This document shows positions 5,796-36,364 of a stretch of DNA of 46,249 nucleotides, one piece after another. Source of the DNA: an uncultured Verrucomicrobiales bacterium (GTDB taxonomy: Bacteria; Verrucomicrobiota; Verrucomicrobiia; Verrucomicrobiales; Akkermansiaceae); contig CALGZA010000012.1 of assembly GCA_937934595.1 (NCBI GenBank), forward strand, positions 1 to 46,249, in the 5' to 3' direction. Positions within the stretch are counted from its first letter, which is position 1, and the number at the start of each line of letters is the position of its first letter. The notes under the pieces are model-generated. The model made no database searches. It was not told the DNA's origin and saw only the letters and a list, made by a program, of their open reading frames with translations. Position numbers and translations under genes: made by a program.

Positions 5796-8366
5796 ATGCT
5801 CCTTAAAAAACCAACACAACAAAAACCCTCCACAGATGAAATCCTTAACCTCTTTCTCGACCAACTCGTCGAAGCAGGAATCGAACTCTACAACCACCAA
5901 GAAGAAGCCATCCTAGAACTCTTCGCAGACAACAACGTCATCCTAAACACCCCAACAGGATCAGGCAAATCACTCGTCGCTCTCGCACACCACTACAAAT
6001 CATTCTGCCAAAACCGCACCTCATACTACACCGTCCCCATCAAAGCTCTCGCAAACGAAAAATTCATCTCACTCTGTAACTCATTCGGACCAGAAAACGT
6101 CGGCATGATAACAGGTGATGCAACAGTAAACGCCTCAGCCCCCATCATCTGCTGCACCGCAGAAATACTATCAAACCTCGCACTCAGAGAAGGATCACAA
6201 GCTCTAGTCCAAGACGTCATCATGGACGAGTTCCACTACTACTCAGACACAGATCGCGGCATAGCATGGCAGATCCCCCTCCTCACACTCCCCCAGTCAC
6301 GCTTCCTCCTCATGTCCGCCACCATCGGTGACACCACATTCTTCCAAAAAGAAATTACCAATCTAACAAAAGCAGAAACATCACTCGTCCAGTCAGACCA
6401 GCGCCCAGTCCCACTAGAATTCACATACTCAGAAATATCCCTAACAGAACAAGTCACAGAACTCGTAGAATCTAACAAATCACCCGTCTACCTAGTCCAC
6501 TTCTCACAACGCGCCTGCGCAGAATCATCACAAGCACTCCTCTCCAACAACCTCTGCTCCAAAGAAGAAAAAAAAGAAATCGCAGAAGCTCTTCACCAAG
6601 CAAATTTCCGCTCACCATACGGCAAAGACATATCCAAACTACTTCGCCACGGCATCGGCATCCACCACGCAGGACTACTCCCAAAATACCGCGTACTAGT
6701 TGAAAAACTAACCCAGCGTGGACTCCTCAAAGTCATCTGCGGAACAGACACACTCGGAGTCGGAATCAACGTCCCCATCCGCTCCGTCCTATTCACCCAG
6801 CTCTGTAAATTCGACGGATCAGGTATGAACATACTATCCGTCCGCGACTTCAAACAAATCGCAGGAAGAGCAGGAAGACGCGGGTTCGATGACATCGGCT
6901 ACGTCGTCGCCCAAGCCCCCGCCCACGCCATCGAAAACATCCGCCTAGAAGCCAAAGCCGCAGCTTCTAACAAAAAGAAAAAAATCGTCAAAAAGAAACC
7001 ACCAGAATTCGGCTACGTCGAATGGTCACTAGACACCTTCACCAAGCTCCAAACATCACCACCAGAACCACTAAAATCCAGCTTCAAACTCCAACACAAC
7101 ACCCTGCTAAACATCCTCAGCAGAACAAACCAAGACGGCTGCACAGAACTAAAAAAAATCATCTCCAACTCCCACGAAACAGAAAAATCCAAGAAAAAAC
7201 TCCGCTCCCTCGCACGCTCCATGTTCATCTCCCTCGTCAGAGGCGGAGTCTTCACCATCATCCCCCCATCAGAAAGAAACCAGCAAAGCTCCAATCAATC
7301 ACAAATTCAGGCGCAAGCCGTCAAGGTACGATTAAACGTCGAACTCCAAGAAGACTTCTCCATGAACCAAGCTCTAGGACTCTACCTACTAGAAGCCATA
7401 CCAGAACTAAACCAAGATGACCCCAACTACGTACTAAACCTCCTCTCCCTCGTCGAAGCCATCCTCGAAAACCCCGCAGCCATACTCAAAGCCCAAGTAA
7501 ATAAAGCAAAAGCAGAACTCGTCGCAGAAATGAAAGCAGACGGAATCGAATACGATGAACGCATGGAAAAACTAGAACAAGTCACCCACCCCATGCCGGG
7601 CAAAAACTATATCTACGACACCTTCAACACATTCCGCACCAAACACCCCTGGATACACTCAGAATCCATCCGCCCCAAGTCCATCGCACGCGAAATGTTC
7701 GCAGAATTCATGAGCTTCGAAGACTACATCAAAAATTACAAACTCGAACGCTCAGAAGCCATCCTCCTCAGACACCTCAGCGAAGTATACAAAGCACTCA
7801 GCCAAACCGTCCCACCAGCCAGCAAAACCCCAGAAGTCCTAGACGCAGAAGCATACCTAAAAGAACACGTCATCAACATAGACTCAAGCCTCATAGACGA
7901 ATGGGAAACCATGAAAAACCCAAACCATAAACCACTTGACCAACAACAAAACAAACCCACCCACCCAGACCGCCCATTCACTCACAACAAAACAAACCTC
8001 ACCAAAATAGTCAGACAAAAAATCTTCACCTCAGTCAAACACCTCGCTCACGATAACCTAACAGAACTACTCACCCTCTTCACCCCCGCAGACCCAGAAA
8101 ACACCCCATGGACTATCGCCCGCCTAGACCCCATCCTAGACGAATACTTCGAGACCCACCACAACATCCGCCTAGACCCAGAAGCTCGCAACATCAAACA
8201 CTTCACCATGGAAGAAACAAACGATAAAAACATCCTAAAAATCACCCAAACCATCACAGACGACGACCTCCTCAACGACTGGATCCTAACCGCTCACCTA
8301 AACCTAACAGAAACCAACCAAGCAGAAGAACCCATCCTCACCCTAGAATCCATAGCACCTGTATAA
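5796..8366 (+). CDS. Ski2-like superfamily 2 RNA helicase with DUF3516-type C-terminus
   Basis: The 856-residue protein has a complete SF2 helicase core: Walker [11 protein letters not shown] (about 51-60), motif II DEFH (144-147), motif III SAT (174-176), a [15 protein letters not shown] block (about 315-329) and motif [12 protein letters not shown] (354-363). The remaining 490 residues are helical and match my memory of the DUF3516 helicases, best known from Actinobacteria and related to HelY/Mtr4-Ski2 enzymes. A lysine-rich insert ([15 protein letters not shown]) follows the core. Family role: ATP-dependent RNA unwinding, probably in RNA processing or decay; the substrate is unknown. The strand bias is extreme here, and the protein is correspondingly rich in T, N, K, H and P, especially near residues 705-730. 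Confidence 0.88.
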
Positions 8367-28833: not shown

Positions 28834-30074
28834 ATGAGTAAATAAAAAAACCACTATGTCGTCCATAGAACGAAGAGCCACTAATCCGAAAGCTCAGAAA
28901 GTGGGAACGCCCTTTAGCACGCTGTCTTCCTGAAAAGGCATGACATTGCACCGCTAGGTAATGCTCCCGTCATAATATCATCGGTCTGGGCTTGCTCTAT
29001 ATGTGGACAAACATAGCAGTTAAAACAAATTAAATACAAATCTCAGATTTTGCAACAGTAAATCATATTCTAATTTCATGTTACAAAACAAAAGGTAACG
29101 TAATATTTTTTCTGTAAAAGTTTAATTAATCTTCAAAGATTGTTAGTTGGTTTAATTCTATTGTGTTTAACTTGAGGTAAGTTATTCAGATTTCCAGCTC
29201 ATCGGAAGTTTCTATGTTAACTCCAGTTACTATCCTTAATACAGATTCTGCGCTGAGCCACATTCAGACTACCTTGGTTAAATCCACCCTGTTGACAGGC
29301 TATTTGGGGAAGAGCTTTCTTAGTCTCTACTATCGCTTTACAGACCAGAGCCGTAGCTCGTTCTGTGCACGCATTTCCCAGAGACAGGTGATAACTTCAT
29401 TGTAACAGGTTTTAACGCTGAGGCTGAGACCGTAACGCTTACTGTTCTCAGTTATGGTGTAAATATAGCACAGCTTCGCACCCAGTCTACCACCCCATAG
29501 AAAAGCCAGCAACACTCACCTAACTTTCTTGATAGAAAGGCATTATCTATTAGGTTACTAGCCATTCCTATGCACCCCTTGACAAAATACTGCTTATGTT
29601 TATTCCCATTGACCAAAGACACCGTCGATAGCCAAAGTAACCTTAAAATTTTATGACTAGCGGGCTTGGAGATTAGTTCTCATGAAGTGAATACCACATA
29701 TAAGAAGTGCTCATTGATGAGATTTAACAGCTTCGTGCCTGCGCCTTATACCATTTGAACTGTTAGAATGGATTGATAGCACAACAAGATAGCAAGCGTA
29801 GCAAGGCAAGAGGAAAGCGCACAGTGGACTATGCAACTGACGAATTAAGAAGCTAATCTTAATGTATTGTTTTGCACTTCAAAAAATCAGCTCTGCTGCT
29901 GTTTCCAAATATATTGAAACTGCTATCAACCCAGAATAACTGTGAAAATGGTATTAACCCATTACATTGAAGATAGCCTTGGTAGTGGTCTTGACCTATA
30001 CCTTTCAGCCTAAAACTTCGCCCAAGATGGTATTTTTTCTTGTTGGATATACTGAGCCATACCGTCCACAAGAC
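28834..30074. other. Gene-poor region with degraded coding traces
   Basis: No convincing gene fills these 1.2 kb, and the strand bias seen on both sides is absent. Traces seen: a 15-residue minus-strand sORF at 28894-28941 (MPFQEDSVLKGVPTF), about 60 bases upstream of the thioesterase start; a plus-strand frame 29214-29405 (VTILNTDSALSHIQTTLVKS and onward), followed in another frame by GDNFIVTGFNAEAETVTLTV ending at 29500; and PFELLEWIDSTTR near 29752-29790, followed by a stop. These look like pieces of one or more decayed genes, perhaps a surface protein and a mobile element, but none is identifiable. I saw no tRNA, tmRNA, SRP RNA or RNase P signature on either strand. Confidence 0.5.
29214..29500 (+). 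pseudogene. Frameshifted fragment of an unidentified beta-rich protein
   Basis: The first frame (from an ATG at 29214) reads VTILNTDSALSHIQTTLVKS then GYLGKSFLSLYYRFTDQS. The next frame, entered near 29380, reads FPETGDNFIVTGFNAEAET then VTLTVLSYGVNIAQL and stops at 29500. Alternating hydrophobic residues, a GDNF turn and the change of frame suggest an exported beta-sandwich or repeat domain broken by an indel. No family is assigned, and chance cannot be excluded. Confidence 0.3.
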
Positions 30075-30110
30075 AAAAAAATAACCCCGCCTGATATATC
30101 ATCAAGACGG
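30075..30110 (-). terminator. Terminator of the exb-TPR operon
   Basis: On the minus strand CCGTC-T-TGAT pairs with ATCAGGCGG (9 bp with one bulge and one G:U), followed by GGTTATTTTTTT. It lies 27 bases past the last gene of the operon. Confidence 0.78.
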
Positions 30111-30136
30111 AGCTAATGTGTTGAATAATGCCAGAA

Positions 30137-31201
30137 CTACTTGGCTTTAGCTTTTGCCTTTGACTTGGCTTTAACTTCAGACTTGCCCTTATTTTTAGTC
30201 TTATCATCTTTCTTCTTGGCTGCTTGAACCTCCTGCGCACGTGCTTCACGCTTCTCAAGCATTTTCAAGGTCTCATCAGAAGTATATTTCTGAAACTTCT
30301 TATACTTTGATGGTAACGGAACTCCAGAACCAAGACCTGCCTTCTCATAAAGACGTGCCAAACCATTCGCCTCAGTAAGCTTTTTGTAACCCGACTTATT
30401 CTTCTCCTCATCAGGAGTTTTCCACAACCGCATAGCTATGTGAATCTCCTCGTCTTTATTAAATATACGCAATGAGTTCAACGCTGCCTCTCGCACAATG
30501 CTCTCAGAACGTGTAAAATCCGAAGTCATAGCAGTAGCATAGGCGTTAAGCGCTTCATTAGTCTTGCCTAACCCTTCATAAGCTAGACCATGACAAAAAG
30601 CTACTTGAGCTCGCTGGCCCAATGACAAAGGATAATCAACATACTCAAGGCACAATGTATGGAGACGCTTCCAGTCTTTCTTATGAACAGCATCATACAT
30701 CTTATACAGCTTTGTCTGCTGAATTATACCAGGACGCGTCAAATAACTTGGCTTATAAAGCTCTAACTCTTTAGCTAATGTCTTATAATCCTTCAACTTC
30801 CGATAGCATTCCATCTCATAAAACTTACTAAGCTCTACATAGTTATCATCTAAAAACTGAAAAGCCTTATAGCGCTTCTGTAGATCTATAAAAGCATCCT
30901 TCGCTTCCTTATACTTCCTCGCCTCATAAAGATCCTTAGCCTCAGTAACGTCCTTAGGCTCAAACAACCAGATACCAGAAAAACTACTAATTGATGCTTT
31001 TTTAGTAACCGTAGCTTTTTTGTTCTCTTTATAGTATAACTTCCTCTTGCTATCAGAACCTGAAACAAGAACCCTGTTGTATTTACCATCATCTTTTATC
31101 AAGTAGCCAGAAACATAAGGCTTCTTAGCCTGCCCACTCACTATCAACGTCCCCAACACTAGTGTAGTTATAGCCGCTGCAATTGATTTTAAAATATTCA
31201 T
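30137..31201 (-). CDS. Exported TPR-like protein with lysine-rich tail
   Basis: The 354-residue protein has a signal peptide (cleavage near SGQA-KK). A short beta region (VSGYLIKDDGKYNRVLV) is followed by helical hairpins in TPR style (about 85-270: YEARKYKEAKDAFIDLQKRY, AFCHGLAYEGLGKTNEALNAY) and a very basic low-complexity tail ending in repeated Lys-Ala and Lys-Ser pairs (about 325-354). It should sit in the periplasm. It is the last gene of the exbB-exbD-exbD-TPR operon, 38 bases after the larger TPR gene, so it is probably an accessory of the same envelope machine. The Lys-rich tail could bind peptidoglycan, LPS or another polyanion (inference). Confidence 0.72.
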   Translation of the reverse strand: MNILKSIAAAITTLVLGTLIVSGQAKKPYVSGYLIKDDGKYNRVLVSGSDSKRKLYYKENKKATVTKKASISSFSGIWLFEPKDVTEAKDLYEARKYKEAKDAFIDLQKRYKAFQFLDDNYVELSKFYEMECYRKLKDYKTLAKELELYKPSYLTRPGIIQQTKLYKMYDAVHKKDWKRLHTLCLEYVDYPLSLGQRAQVAFCHGLAYEGLGKTNEALNAYATAMTSDFTRSESIVREAALNSLRIFNKDEEIHIAMRLWKTPDEEKNKSGYKKLTEANGLARLYEKAGLGSGVPLPSKYKKFQKYTSDETLKMLEKREARAQEVQAAKKKDDKTKNKGKSEVKAKSKAKAKAK

Positions 31202-31239
31202 AATTATATTTATTTAGTTAATTTTTTTATGACCAGTAA

Positions 31240-34200
31240 TTACCCCTCAAGACCCTTTTCTTTTCTCTGTCTCTTTAGCGATTTAATTCCTGGCTCACTT
31301 TCCCATGACTTTGAAAGATCCCTCATCTCCTCCCATGATTTCCTAACATCGGTCGGCATCTTTACCTTATTTGCCTCATAAGCCTTAGTTGAACTCCTAA
31401 CAAAATTAGCAACCATGTTGTAAGCTATCTGCTTAGCTGAAGTCCCCTGAACTTCCTTACCATTCTTTTTAGTAAGAATTGCTGCCTTCTTCAAAGCTGG
31501 AATAGATATTTCCCACCTCGATTTATAGCGACCGTATACCGCTGTATAGGTAGATGTCGCCTTGCTGACATTACCATCTGCCTCATAGCCCCTGGCCAAC
31601 ATAAACGCTACTTCCGCTTGTTTATTCTTCGCGTATTTAGCTTTGTTGTATGAAGTAGCATACTTAATAACATTCTTCCAGCTCTCCTTCTGAGCATAGA
31701 CTTCTACCAAGTTATACGTTGCTTTCTCCTCCGTCTTACTATCAATATCCTTTGTAGCTAATACGTCTTTAAGCGTTTCTAATGCCTGATTCTGCTCAGT
31801 TGCGTTAGTGCTCTTGGCCAAAATACCAGCTCTTCCAAACTGCGCTTTCACACGGAATTTTTTACTATTTCGTCCAAGAATTTCATCATAATAAGGCAAT
31901 GCCTTACGTGGATTACCCGTACGTTCTGCAATGAAGTTACCCAAGCGTATCAAAATAAAGTCACTGAGTTCACTCTTCTTGAACTTCTTATCCATATCTC
32001 CAAATATCACTTGGATCTTAATCCTCAGAAGATCCACTTCTTCCTGAGCATCTTCACCACCTGCCTTCTCCAAATTAGCGATGATATCCTCATAAACTCC
32101 AATTATAGCTATTCGTAGCAATGCCTGGGTACGCTTATCTCCAGCATCTACATCCGGGAATCGCTCAAAATGAGTCTTTAGCTGCTCTGGAGTATATCCC
32201 TCTTCTAGATAAAGCTTACCATAACTATTTATGGCCTCCTCTAAGCCTGGTGCATTCTCCTTCTTTGCCATCTCTGATAAGACACTCTGAAGATTCGCTA
32301 ATGCCTCTTTACCTCTACCCGCTGCCTTAAGAGCCGGTACACCCGCTACTGCTAACTCAGTCTTATACGGTGAACTCTGGCGCTCTTTCCAGAACTCATC
32401 ATAATAAGGTATAGCATCTTGTATCTTAGGATTAGGCTCTTTATTTACAGTCTTGACTCCGTGTAGCGCAACTAATTTATAGAGTGCCTCTTCAGACACA
32501 ATATCTGCTCCCTGCCTCTTAGAAAGCTCTAGCCCCTTTATATAATACTCGTGAGATAAATCCTTTTCCTTCTTAGCTCTGTGAACATCTCCTCGCAATA
32601 AGAAAGCAACGCTCTCAACAGCAGAGGATGGAAACTTCTTCTCTAACTTGTCGAGTGCAGCCACAGACTCCTCTAACTCTTCAAGTGAAAAATGTGTATT
32701 CGCCCTATCATACAAAGCAAACGGTATATAATCATTCGTACTAGCATCAGGATAATCGCTCATAAAACGATCCAACTCAGTCGCTGCTTTCTCCCAATTC
32801 TCAAGACGTGTGTAGTTAGATGCCGCAAAATATCTTGCTGCAATCTTATACTTACTATCTTTATACATCTTCACATGCTTCTTCAAATACGGATCCGCTT
32901 CAAAAAACCTACCAAGATAAAACATTGAACCACCATAAACATGCAAACATAAATCATGTTGCTCAGTCTTCTCCGCCAAAGTAGGCATTAGCTCAGTAGC
33001 AACCTTAAAAGCCACCTCATATTCACCAGTATAAAAAAGTGAAATCAACATCATGTTTTTCACCGCTCCAGCATACTGACTTGTAGGAAACTTCTCTAGA
33101 AAGAGTCTACCATACTTTTCTGTCTCCATTACCTCTCCTACAGCGGACGAAGTCCTCACCAAATTGTAGAGATTTGCCTCACGACGCTTACTTTTCTTGT
33201 AATACTTTTCCAGAGACTTGAAAGCATTATACGCTCCTCGCGTATACCCCTCTCCCTCATGTGTCGCTGCAAGGGACAACATCGCCAAAAGCTCGTGAGG
33301 CTCACCGGCATCTATAGACTTACTAATATGCTTCAAATCATTTTGGATACGGATCACAGACTGCATAGCATTAGGATTTATATAACCATCTTTTACAAGA
33401 GGCCTTGTGTAACCAGCCAAATCTTGGTCAAAAACACTGAGATCTTCAAATGCCTCTTTCGTTCCAGGCATTAACCCATAGAGCGCAAACGTAGCTCCTA
33501 ACATATCCTGAGAAAACGCTTCAGCAGCATACTTCCTAAAGGACGGAATAAACTGATACATCTTATAAGGATCAAGAGTCAATACACCTCGGTTCTCATT
33601 TACAAACTTTACTAACATCGCCTCTTTCTTTTGAAAGATAGTCGCAGCAGCAAAGTCTTTGAATGCGGTTACAATCGCAGCATCAGGCACTCTCATCTTG
33701 TCTTTGTTCTTTAAAGCCTTCTCGTAGTAACGCAGACCTCCTTTTATATTAGGCTTTTCGAGTTTAAAATGGCAAATTGCCATGTTAATGTGATACATCC
33801 CAATGTGATATTTATCTTTGATCTCCTTCTTATCACGCTCATCAAGAAATTTCTTGTAGCTTGTAATCGCTTCAGCAAACTTCTTTAAATGCTGATCGGC
33901 TTCTCCTGTATACAGTAGCGATTTAGTACGGTATATATTCTCCTTACCCTTGATCTTGCGACAAGCCTCAAAAGACTCTTTAGCCTCACCCAATAGCTCT
34001 TCAGCTTTGTTTAAATCCTTCTCGTTACTAGAACTCAGAAGAGTTTTCGCAAAACTTAACTCACAATAGCCCTTGTCATAATACAAGTTACCAAACTTAG
34101 GCCCATGTAATCGTGCTCCATTCTCTCCATGATTCTTCATGATGCGATCATAGATAACCTTAGCTTCAGCATAGCTTTTCTTACGCATCGCCTGTATAGC

Positions 34201-34308
34201 AGCGCCAACATCTTGACCTATATTTGCACTTGCTACATGGGGTAATACAGTCACCAAGGAAGACCCCGCGATTACTAGTGCTAACGTGATTGACTTTCTT
34301 TTTTTCAT
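31240..34308 (-). CDS. Large exported TPR-repeat protein
   Basis: From the ATG at 34308 the protein is 1022 residues; an upstream ATG (34353) would put 15 residues before the signal peptide. After the signal (MKKRKSITLALVIAGSSLVT, cleavage near ASA-NI) almost the whole length is TPR-like helical hairpins, for example KKFAEAITSYKKFLDERDKK, NYTRLENWEKAATELDRFM, and EVAFMLARGYEADGNVSKAT. Such periplasmic TPR solenoids act as protein-binding scaffolds, similar in principle to CpoB (YbgF) beside Tol-Pal, though far larger. It is in an operon with exbB and two exbD genes; the preceding exbD is 179 bases upstream. A role in coupling the ExbBD motor to an outer-membrane partner is inferred. Confidence 0.8.
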   Translation of the reverse strand: MKKRKSITLALVIAGSSLVTVLPHVASANIGQDVGAAIQAMRKKSYAEAKVIYDRIMKNHGENGARLHGPKFGNLYYDKGYCELSFAKTLLSSSNEKDLNKAEELLGEAKESFEACRKIKGKENIYRTKSLLYTGEADQHLKKFAEAITSYKKFLDERDKKEIKDKYHIGMYHINMAICHFKLEKPNIKGGLRYYEKALKNKDKMRVPDAAIVTAFKDFAAATIFQKKEAMLVKFVNENRGVLTLDPYKMYQFIPSFRKYAAEAFSQDMLGATFALYGLMPGTKEAFEDLSVFDQDLAGYTRPLVKDGYINPNAMQSVIRIQNDLKHISKSIDAGEPHELLAMLSLAATHEGEGYTRGAYNAFKSLEKYYKKSKRREANLYNLVRTSSAVGEVMETEKYGRLFLEKFPTSQYAGAVKNMMLISLFYTGEYEVAFKVATELMPTLAEKTEQHDLCLHVYGGSMFYLGRFFEADPYLKKHVKMYKDSKYKIAARYFAASNYTRLENWEKAATELDRFMSDYPDASTNDYIPFALYDRANTHFSLEELEESVAALDKLEKKFPSSAVESVAFLLRGDVHRAKKEKDLSHEYYIKGLELSKRQGADIVSEEALYKLVALHGVKTVNKEPNPKIQDAIPYYDEFWKERQSSPYKTELAVAGVPALKAAGRGKEALANLQSVLSEMAKKENAPGLEEAINSYGKLYLEEGYTPEQLKTHFERFPDVDAGDKRTQALLRIAIIGVYEDIIANLEKAGGEDAQEEVDLLRIKIQVIFGDMDKKFKKSELSDFILIRLGNFIAERTGNPRKALPYYDEILGRNSKKFRVKAQFGRAGILAKSTNATEQNQALETLKDVLATKDIDSKTEEKATYNLVEVYAQKESWKNVIKYATSYNKAKYAKNKQAEVAFMLARGYEADGNVSKATSTYTAVYGRYKSRWEISIPALKKAAILTKKNGKEVQGTSAKQIAYNMVANFVRSSTKAYEANKVKMPTDVRKSWEEMRDLSKSWESEPGIKSLKRQRKEKGLEG

Positions 34309-34487
34309 AGTTTGTTGATTATTGAATTTATAATGTAATCGTAACAGATTCACGATTCATAAAATGAAGGACGACTCCCATAAAAAAGACGGCCTTCTTT
34401 GGTTTAGATCTTCTACAGTTAGTATTACGAAAAACACCGCAGAAATATTAGGTATTCAGAGGACTAAATTATTAATGCAGTTTCTCG

Positions 34488-34955
34488 CTACTCGTCAATT
34501 ACAGCAAAAGTCACACTATTAATATTTGCACCTTTCAGACAGTTTAAAACATCCATTGCAGTCTGTTGATCGAGCAAAGGATCAATAAATAACTGCACAA
34601 CAGGCTCAGAACCACTTGATTTTGTTGTCATACTGTAAGTTTTCAAACTCTCGAACAATAATGGCAACACACGATCATCACCCTTAACTGATGTATCAAG
34701 ATTTTCTTCCTTATTAACCACTATAGAAAAACCTGATCCTGTCTTATTCACTTGGATAAGCATAGGCTCAATTTCCACAGGAGCAGAAGTCTTCGAATCT
34801 GAAGGTAATGTCATCGGTAAGTCTTGCTCACGCGGTTGAATTGTTGACGTAACCAAAAAGTAAATAAGTAACAAAAAACAAACATCAATCAATGATGAAA
34901 TGTCTAACACTGGTTCGTCTTCATCTGCCTGGAGTCCTCTCTTTCTTCTAGCCAT
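34488..34955 (-). CDS. exbD: ExbD/TolR family protein (second copy)
   Basis: The 155-residue protein has a short basic cytoplasmic tail, one transmembrane segment (about 19-41, ISSLIDVCFLLLIYFLVTS) with the conserved proton-path D24, and a periplasmic domain ending at about 150. This is the ExbD/TolR/MotB-like architecture: a single-pass partner of ExbB that uses proton-motive force. The operon has two different exbD genes (this and 35001-35480), which share the N-terminal pattern but differ in the periplasmic domain, so a heterodimer is likely. It begins 45 bases after the first copy. Confidence 0.9.
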   Translation of the reverse strand: MARRKRGLQADEDEPVLDISSLIDVCFLLLIYFLVTSTIQPREQDLPMTLPSDSKTSAPVEIEPMLIQVNKTGSGFSIVVNKEENLDTSVKGDDRVLPLLFESLKTYSMTTKSSGSEPVVQLFIDPLLDQQTAMDVLNCLKGANINSVTFAVIDE

Positions 34956-35000
34956 AATAATAATATATGTTGTATTTAATAAATGTTAAGATAAGAAAAT

Positions 35001-35480
35001 TTAGTCCTTATCAAACGGATAAACAGAAAATTTGATTTTCCTAACCCCTGCCGCTGCTGCCCCTGCTATAGCCTCCTGAGAATACTTAAAGAGCACCCTC
35101 TTGTCTCCTCGCAAATGGAGATTAAGCTTTTCTTCAAATTCAGGATTCATGTCCGTGATACGTTTTTTCTCCGCCTCAACATATTCTGTAATCTCTTCTA
35201 TCGTCTCCATCTTACCTCCATCTTCTTCAGCGTATTTAACTTTGCGGTAGTCCTTCTCACCCCTCACGTTTAGTACTATTCTGCCGTGATTGTCATTCGG
35301 CTTGGTAGAATGAACCGCTGTCGCTGGTTTGACGTCAGGGTCCATTTTCACAATCATAGGCGATGATACTACAATGAAGAAAATCAACAGCAGAAACACC
35401 ATATCAATCATTGGAGACATATCCATATCAGATTCCTTCTCTTGATGTGCGTTTAACGCTCGTAATTTATTTGATGCCAT
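35001..35480 (-). CDS. exbD: ExbD/TolR family protein (first copy)
   Basis: The 159-residue protein has a cytoplasmic N-terminus with MDMSPMIDMVFLLLIFFIVV, in which D26 is the conserved protonatable residue of the single transmembrane helix, and a periplasmic domain with HLRGDKRVLFKYSQEAI, the ExbD carboxy-terminal fold. It has an acidic periplasmic insert (YAEEDGGKMETIEEITEY, about 83-100) not present in the second copy. It is encoded 104 bases after exbB, with a strong hairpin in that gap. Confidence 0.92.
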   Translation of the reverse strand: MASNKLRALNAHQEKESDMDMSPMIDMVFLLLIFFIVVSSPMIVKMDPDVKPATAVHSTKPNDNHGRIVLNVRGEKDYRKVKYAEEDGGKMETIEEITEYVEAEKKRITDMNPEFEEKLNLHLRGDKRVLFKYSQEAIAGAAAAGVRKIKFSVYPFDKD

Positions 35481-35535
35481 AATGTAAATATACTAATTTA
35501 AATTAGCTGAATCGTGTAAGATAGTGATCTAAAAT

Positions 35536-35569
35536 CAACCAGAGGCTCAGCTATTGAAACCTCTGGTTG
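35536..35569 (-). terminator. Intercistronic hairpin between exbB and exbD
   Basis: CAACCAGAGG and CCTCTGGTTG form a 10-bp perfect stem with a 14-base loop in the exbB-exbD gap. On the minus strand only ATTTTAG follows, a weak T-run. It could act as a partial terminator or 3'-end stabiliser giving more ExbB than ExbD, in line with the known excess of ExbB in the motor. Confidence 0.6.
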
Positions 35570-35584
35570 TATATGTTGTTCAAG

Positions 35585-36364
35585 TTATACGGCTAAGCCC
35601 TCAGGAATCTTAGCTAATTGAGCATCTCCATTCACTGTCTGAATAGATGCATTGATCAATTGCTCCGCTGTCTGGTTACACTCAGCTACTAAAGACTGGT
35701 AACGTCCTTTGAAGTAAAAATAAGCAAAAACAGCTAAGATAGCTACAATAAGACCCCACATAGTAGTAAGTAGCGCTACTGATATCTTCCCAGCAAGATC
35801 ACCAGGATCAGTCTGACCGTCACCTAGTAAAGCAAAAGCTCCAATCATACCAAAAACAGTTCCAAAGAGTCCTAGCATCGGTGCTACTTGGGCTACCAAT
35901 GATACCATATTAATCCAAATCATGTTCTTTCTACCCTCGTTGATTGAAAAATCAGCCATTGAATCCTCTACTCCATCTCTGCCTAAATCTTCAGGACGTG
36001 TAGCATCTATATTAGGTAGCGCATAAGCCATCATCCTTCCTAAGTAAGATGGGTGAGATGCGGACAATTCAATGGCAGACCTGACTCTACAGTTCACCAT
36101 ATGGTCTAAAAGTGCACCCTTAAGGTCGTCCGGACAATACTTTGCCTTCGACAAATTAATGAAGTTATACACCGATAAACCAATCAATGAAATGAGACCA
36201 AAGGCAACAATAAACATGGTCAACAGTCCACCCTGCGTTAAATACTGCTCTAAAGCACTTTTCGGCTTCGCGGCTGACTGAGCCATCAACGGCGCAGCGG
36301 TTAATAATACGGTCGATAGTGCGAGACTCGCTTTCTTGACTTTGCTAGTAGCTAAATATTTCAT
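35585..36364 (-). CDS. exbB: ExbB/TolQ/MotA family proton channel protein
   Basis: The 259-residue protein begins with a cleavable-looking signal peptide (about 1-29, LMAQSA), as in many Gram-negative ExbB proteins of this type. Transmembrane segments follow at about 47-68, 152-175 and 192-216. The second and third have the signature SLVAQVAPMLGLFGTVFGM and the TTMWGLIVAILAVFAYFYF helix of the MotA/TolQ/ExbB domain. It forms the pentameric channel that powers TonB-like or Tol-like machines. It is first in a five-gene minus-strand operon with two exbD and two TPR genes. No tonB gene is visible in the window. Confidence 0.92.
   Translation of the reverse strand: MKYLATSKVKKASLALSTVLLTAAPLMAQSAAKPKSALEQYLTQGGLLTMFIVAFGLISLIGLSVYNFINLSKAKYCPDDLKGALLDHMVNCRVRSAIELSASHPSYLGRMMAYALPNIDATRPEDLGRDGVEDSMADFSINEGRKNMIWINMVSLVAQVAPMLGLFGTVFGMIGAFALLGDGQTDPGDLAGKISVALLTTMWGLIVAILAVFAYFYFKGRYQSLVAECNQTAEQLINASIQTVNGDAQLAKIPEGLAV

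Follow-up and report, generated by a model that had tools for sequence, protein, structure and literature searches.

Mucin utilization locus 1 (MUL1) is a locus of Akkermansia muciniphila reportedly described by Davey et al. in 2023. According to a later report, MUL genes are required in this species for the accumulation of mucin degradation products in internal compartments (PMC12418764), and some A. muciniphila enzymes have been marked as Mul1A-associated (PMC11790493). Elsewhere in the Planctomycetota-Verrucomicrobiota-Chlamydiota (PVC) bacteria, TolA/TonB-like transducers are found in TPR-tolQ-tolR-tolR-vWA clusters, TPR standing for tetratricopeptide repeat (PMC12204202). Here we describe a five-gene unit with similarity to both systems in a 46,249-nucleotide stretch of DNA, referred to below as the window (contig CALGZA010000012.1), from an uncultured Verrucomicrobiales bacterium of the family Akkermansiaceae. 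The host assembly is 3.15 Mb long and 95.9% complete. An earlier note on the window, made from the sequence alone, had interpreted the genes as an energised envelope machine in which the two ExbDs are asymmetric and TonB is not encoded locally. That part of the interpretation holds, as do the genes, order and strand that the note gave; the homology to MUL1 was missed.

Identity and distribution of the five-gene unit

The unit lies on the minus strand and its open reading frames (ORFs) were confirmed at the following coordinates, listed in transcription order.

35585..36364, minus strand, ExbB/TolQ-like motor subunit, 259 residues (PF01618, 1.6e-24)
35001..35480, minus strand, ExbD-a, first of the ExbD pair, 159 residues (PF02472, 2.4e-15)
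34488..34955, minus strand, ExbD-b, second of the ExbD pair, 155 residues (PF02472, 9.3e-17)
31240..34308, minus strand, large periplasmic TPR solenoid with a signal peptide, 1022 residues (TPR Pfam families)
30137..31201, minus strand, Mul1B homologue, 354 residues, with a signal peptide, a small N-terminal beta-domain, TPR-type helices and a Lys/Ala tail (NF052542)

The ATG start of the TPR gene gives 1022 residues, and an alternative GTG start gives 1037. The gaps between the genes are, in transcription order, 104, 45, 179 and 38 base pairs.

The last protein of the unit scored 220.4 bits against the NCBIfam model NF052542 ('Mul1B family putative transporter subunit'), for which the curated cut-off is 75. 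This model was matched above its cut-off in 34 of 387 Verrucomicrobiota genomes, every one of them within the window's own family. The genome designated G113, which we take to be A. muciniphila ATCC BAA-835, contains a locus (L038) with five genes in the same order as in the window and a Mul1B scoring 292 bits; it also carries a MUL2-type locus with a member of the Amuc_1102 family, consistent with this identification. Identities between the window and L038 are 50% for ExbB, 40% for ExbD-a, 39% for ExbD-b, 27% for the large TPR protein (over 1100 aligned positions, E value 6e-73) and 22% for Mul1B. As in L038, mul1B in the window has a large TPR gene directly upstream, preceded in turn by ExbB-ExbD-ExbD. 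The match to NF052542, together with the five-gene order of L038, therefore indicates that the unit is a homologue of MUL1. Its large TPR protein is the counterpart of the A. muciniphila TPR protein encoded beside mul1B, probably Mul1A. One paper lists Amuc_0546 as a biopolymer transporter (PMC11480725), which fits the position of an ExbD if Mul1B is Amuc_0543, a numbering that we infer.

The two genomes have in common the five protein families, the gene order, a Mul1B above the cut-off and a MUL2 locus. In the window's genome MUL2 contains members of the Amuc_1102 family (213 bits, cut-off 55) and the Amuc_1101 family (775 bits, cut-off 650), and is arranged as a pilin-like Amuc_1102, a PilM-like Amuc_1101, two further genes, a secretin, and two genes fitting the dephospho-CoA kinase and rho reported for MUL2, so that the gene order matches. 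The loci differ in that the host of the window is Rubritalea-like and of marine type, its TPR and Mul1B proteins are divergent, and the genes flanking the unit are not the same.

A scan of named genomes with an ExbB profile gave 80 loci, a sample that is therefore drawn by ExbB. Judged by their record titles, most are aquatic (Rubritalea, Roseibacillus, Haloferula, Luteolibacter and other assemblies). The nearest relatives, in assemblies of uncultured Rubritalea and of Akkermansiaceae, have an ExbB 85% identical to that of the window, and one partial match reaches 91%. The order ExbB-ExbDa-ExbDb-TPR-Mul1B was complete in all 64 loci with enough contig to assess it. Fifteen other loci run into a contig end without deviating from this order, and L100 has the complete order with a split ExbDa frame. 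Conservation in 64 of 64 loci means that the order is not due to chance, and the TPR genes, whose retention beside exbBD in relatives was the check proposed in the earlier note, are kept there. When the sample was drawn by Mul1B instead, 12 of the 16 family loci above the cut-off had the complete order. Two loci from records titled Akkermansia muciniphila (L117 and L143) have an ExbB 58-62% identical to that of the window, compared with 50% for L038; they may be mislabelled aquatic relatives.

These observations contradict a recent claim. PMC13174399 (2026) reports that aquatic Akkermansiaceae do not share the MUL1 synteny, and on these grounds views MUL1 as a mucin-specific adaptation to the gut. 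The five-gene unit is present in aquatic Akkermansiaceae. The TPR and Mul1B proteins have low identity and the genes around the unit differ, which may be why it escaped notice; the definition of MUL1 used there may also be wider than the five genes. The distribution of MUL1 found here is wider, and its ancestry clearer, than in the papers cited.

Motor subunits and periplasmic proteins

Among solved structures, the best relatives of the ExbB profile are TolQ and ExbB, with TolQ the closest. The pore threonines T168, T199 and T200 (numbered as in alignment A1, leaving out the start Met) are kept in 13 of 13 relatives. The membrane helix of ExbD-a contains the motif DMSPMID and that of ExbD-b the motif DISSLID, each including the proton-site Asp, and this Asp is kept in all 26 sequences examined across both ExbD families; the periplasmic region of ExbD-a varies in length. 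The unit thus has the pore Thr and inner-helix Asp that characterise 5:2 ion-driven motors of the ExbBD, TolQR and MotAB type.

In a tree of 89 sequences, the ExbDa proteins of MUL1 form one clade (support 100/98) and the ExbDb proteins another (100/99), and MUL1 ExbDa groups with the first ExbDs of a related module found across the phylum and described below (97/96). The pairing is therefore ancient, and neither ExbD is a recent duplicate of the other. Judged from these sequences, ExbD-a and ExbD-b represent two separate old orthologous lineages, which supports the earlier suggestion of two differing ExbDs in an asymmetric motor, and the natural reading is that they would form a heterodimer in the pore. 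Other systems have paired exbD genes too, such as exbD1 and exbD2 in several Ton systems. The two-ExbD design makes MUL1 a natural test case for asymmetry in 5:2 ion motors.

Inspection of the large TPR protein shows a signal peptide at its N-terminus, and nearly all of its relatives are without a lipobox. AlphaFold2 predicted it to be a continuous, nearly all-helical solenoid (predicted local distance difference test score, pLDDT, 91.7). For the Mul1B homologue it predicted a small beta-domain and, after it, TPR-type helices (pLDDT 93.4). Both proteins appear to be exported and to keep no membrane helix. The earlier note proposed that the solenoid could replace or guide TonB or TolA; having no such anchor, the two proteins cannot dock on the motor within the membrane in the manner of TonB or TolA. 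Fold comparison was rejected as a functional lead, the matches listed for both proteins being to generic TPR proteins only (Ctr9, SKI3, BamD, MamA and others). Identification of the large protein as PorW/SprE (44 bits, cut-off 250) or of these proteins as YbgF was likewise rejected, as the matches fall far under the curated cut-offs and were read as generic TPR similarity. The Lys-Ala-rich tail described in the earlier note is present in the window's Mul1B homologue and missing in most others, and was discarded as a functional element.

Related modules, proposed function and alternatives

Weaker matches to Mul1B across the phylum led to a related module in which the order is permuted to TPR, Mul1B-like, ExbB, ExbDa, ExbDb. 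Of 20 such loci, 19 contained ExbB-ExbD-ExbD; the set was picked by the weak Mul1B match and gives no estimate for the population, and in some loci the Mul1B model does not recognise the gene that takes the place of Mul1B. MUL1 is a diverged relative of this phylum-wide module. The two types lie side by side in L043 and L116, and we infer that tandem duplication followed by loss would yield the permuted order. Neighbouring modules of both types, or extra TPR or Mul1B genes, were seen in L043, L116, L074 and L098, an arrangement consistent with duplication and permutation.

The phylum-wide module is often accompanied by a protein that begins with its only membrane helix, in which Ser-x-x-x-His occurs, and continues through a linker into a C-terminal domain. 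This domain is a toroid resembling squalene-hopene cyclase, a DUF4159 domain, or unassigned. The topology of these proteins matches that of the PVC TolA/TonB-like transducers (PMC12204202). Like the PVC clusters, MUL1 combines a TPR gene with a single TolQ/ExbB-type gene and a pair of unlike TolR/ExbD-type genes. It differs from them in its permuted order and in that those clusters have their own membrane-anchored transducer with a conserved His, none being found in MUL1-type units. A transducer model built here matched loci of the phylum-wide module and no ORF beside MUL1-type units or in the window; the match in L116 belongs to the phylum-wide module of that locus.

In seven loci (L056, L053, L116, L152, L157, L159 and L160; alignment A5) a TonB/TolA-like helix, linker and squalene-hopene-cyclase-like toroid adjoin TPR-ExbB-ExbD-ExbD. 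This toroid output domain seems to differ from the vWA transducers of PMC12204202. Toroid proteins related to the transducers of the phylum-wide module, and not linked to the unit, were also found in the MUL1-bearing genomes tested. They are single-helix proteins starting MSLH. Those of the host genome (G000) are encoded at 6457-7914 on the plus strand of contig C42 (L191) and 7411-8286 on the plus strand of C88 (L192). The A. muciniphila-like genome G113 has a tandem pair (L193, 7713-9215 and 9365-10888, minus strand). The proteins of C42, C88 and L193 are candidate force transducers with the right topology, but as their membrane helix is without the His of the phylum-wide transducers, they stay a lead.

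We think it probable, on the whole of this analysis, that the unit encodes an asymmetric proton motor homologous to that of MUL1, coupled through the TPR proteins to an outer-membrane import complex and driving the uptake of large glycans into the periplasm. In the inner membrane, the motor would be built from five ExbB subunits with a single copy each of ExbD-a and ExbD-b. The TPR solenoid and Mul1B would lie in the periplasm, on or near the periplasmic domains of the ExbDs, and would couple the motor to the import complex, perhaps the secretin- and pilus-like complex of MUL2; the TPR proteins may also hold periplasmic glycan hydrolases. The output would be an energy-driven 'selfish' uptake of large glycans or glycoproteins. 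The cargo would be mucin in Akkermansia and here probably an algal or sulfated polysaccharide; the Rubritalea-like, marine-type host makes mucin an improbable substrate. The host genome contains 15 sulfatases, one of them inside the window, and uptake of fluorescent fucoidan by marine Akkermansiaceae is reported in PMC13174399. That MUL1 is conserved in relatives from the sea and from fresh water suggests that it began as a motor for glycan uptake in general and was adapted to mucin afterwards. If so, the unit bears on how Verrucomicrobiota bring large polysaccharides through the outer membrane and hints at a part in marine carbon cycling, and its presence in aquatic isolates opens a genetic test.

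Several points weigh against a MUL1-type uptake motor. The unit contains no TonB-like membrane-helix protein. The TPR and Mul1B proteins have low identity (27% and 22%) to those of Akkermansia. In L043, L047, L048 and L050 the TPR-Mul1B pair is kept without an adjacent motor, and no MUL1-type ExbB was found elsewhere in those genomes. Finally, there is the published report that MUL1 synteny is absent from aquatic relatives.

A broader proposal, which we put forward tentatively and hold to be possible rather than probable, is that MUL1 belongs to a phylum-wide class of proton motors that is neither Ton nor Tol. In this class two unlike ExbDs, always paired, would drive a long periplasmic TPR solenoid for the uptake of whole polysaccharides. 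MUL1 would be the branch without a linked membrane-anchored transducer, its force being passed on either by the periplasmic domains of the ExbDs together with the TPR solenoid or by a transducer encoded elsewhere.

It is unlikely, though worth weighing, that the unit is instead a Tol-Pal-like machine for outer-membrane stability or division, in which the TPR proteins pass the pull of the motor on to the outer membrane and any uptake defect would be secondary. The TolQ-like motor with a periplasmic TPR partner recalls TolQ-TolR-TolA-Pal with CpoB/YbgF, there is a resemblance of the TPR proteins to CpoB/YbgF and to TPRs of the BamD type, and no TolB N-domain was found in the genome, so another system could fill this role. 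However, TolA, TolB and Pal are lacking from the unit, TolB and Pal are not encoded with TolQRA among the window ORFs scanned, and the TPR protein is about 1000 residues long. At C25 (L062) the genome also has another TolQR-like pair, accompanied by a TolA/TonB-like protein, and the MUL phenotypes known in A. muciniphila concern mucin accumulation (PMC12418764).

We regard as improbable a motor for surface motility or protein secretion of the gliding or type IX kind, in which the TPR proteins would make up the periplasmic section of a secretion complex. Related motors power gliding in other phyla (PMC12204202) and there is the weak similarity to PorW/SprE given above, but that similarity goes no further than generic TPR repeats, and A. 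muciniphila carries the locus yet is non-motile (PMC12418764).

The unit resembles ExbB-ExbD-TonB in its 5:2-type motor proteins with conserved Thr and Asp, and differs in its two distinct ExbDs, its two periplasmic TPR proteins and the lack of a TonB encoded with the motor. None of the 27 window ORFs scanned with Pfam (smaller ORFs were scanned only in part) is a TonB, TolA, Pal or TonB receptor, as the earlier note had stated. An unlinked TonB can serve a motor, and TonB and receptors elsewhere mean that the genome is not TonB-less; even so, a second energiser working with these proteins is very improbable, because the only TonB_C match lies at C5 in its own ExbB-ExbB-ExbD-TonB cluster (L061) and there are only three receptor plug domains. 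Contig C122 of the host genome contains an ExbB-ExbD-TPR cluster with a single ExbD and a TPR protein of 796 residues (L064, 4223-7969, minus strand). A PHROGs search gave no match.

Transcription signals

Three hairpins were located in and beside the unit.

35536..35569, minus strand, 13-base-pair hairpin in the exbB/exbD-a gap, a possible attenuator or RNA-stability element (free energy -19.4)
34366..34397, minus strand, hairpin in the exbD-b/TPR gap
30074..30115, minus strand, terminator-like hairpin (free energy -16.2) followed by TTTTTTT, just 3′ of mul1B

The unit probably ends at the terminator-like hairpin. Hairpins of -8 kcal/mol or lower were present in the exbB/exbD-a gap in 48 of 79 loci and in the exbD-b/TPR gap in 60 of 70, the latter being followed by T-tracts in several relatives (for example L082, L085, L088, L092 and L098). 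The signal over shuffled sequence was moderate, with a median z of about -1.5 to -1.9. Because of the hairpins in these two gaps, the single transcript implied by the earlier description of one minus-strand unit is not established. They fit either separate transcripts or attenuation, by which more ExbB than ExbD, and more of the motor than of the TPR proteins, would be made. A consensus promoter scan gave fewer matches than in shuffled sequence and was not used. The hairpin in the exbD-b/TPR gap has a similar sequence (GAAGG-CGTC ... GTCGTCCTTC) in the window and in L066, L067, L068, L070 and L072, all of the Rubritalea group; the stem differs among members, and a conserved RNA element is possible.

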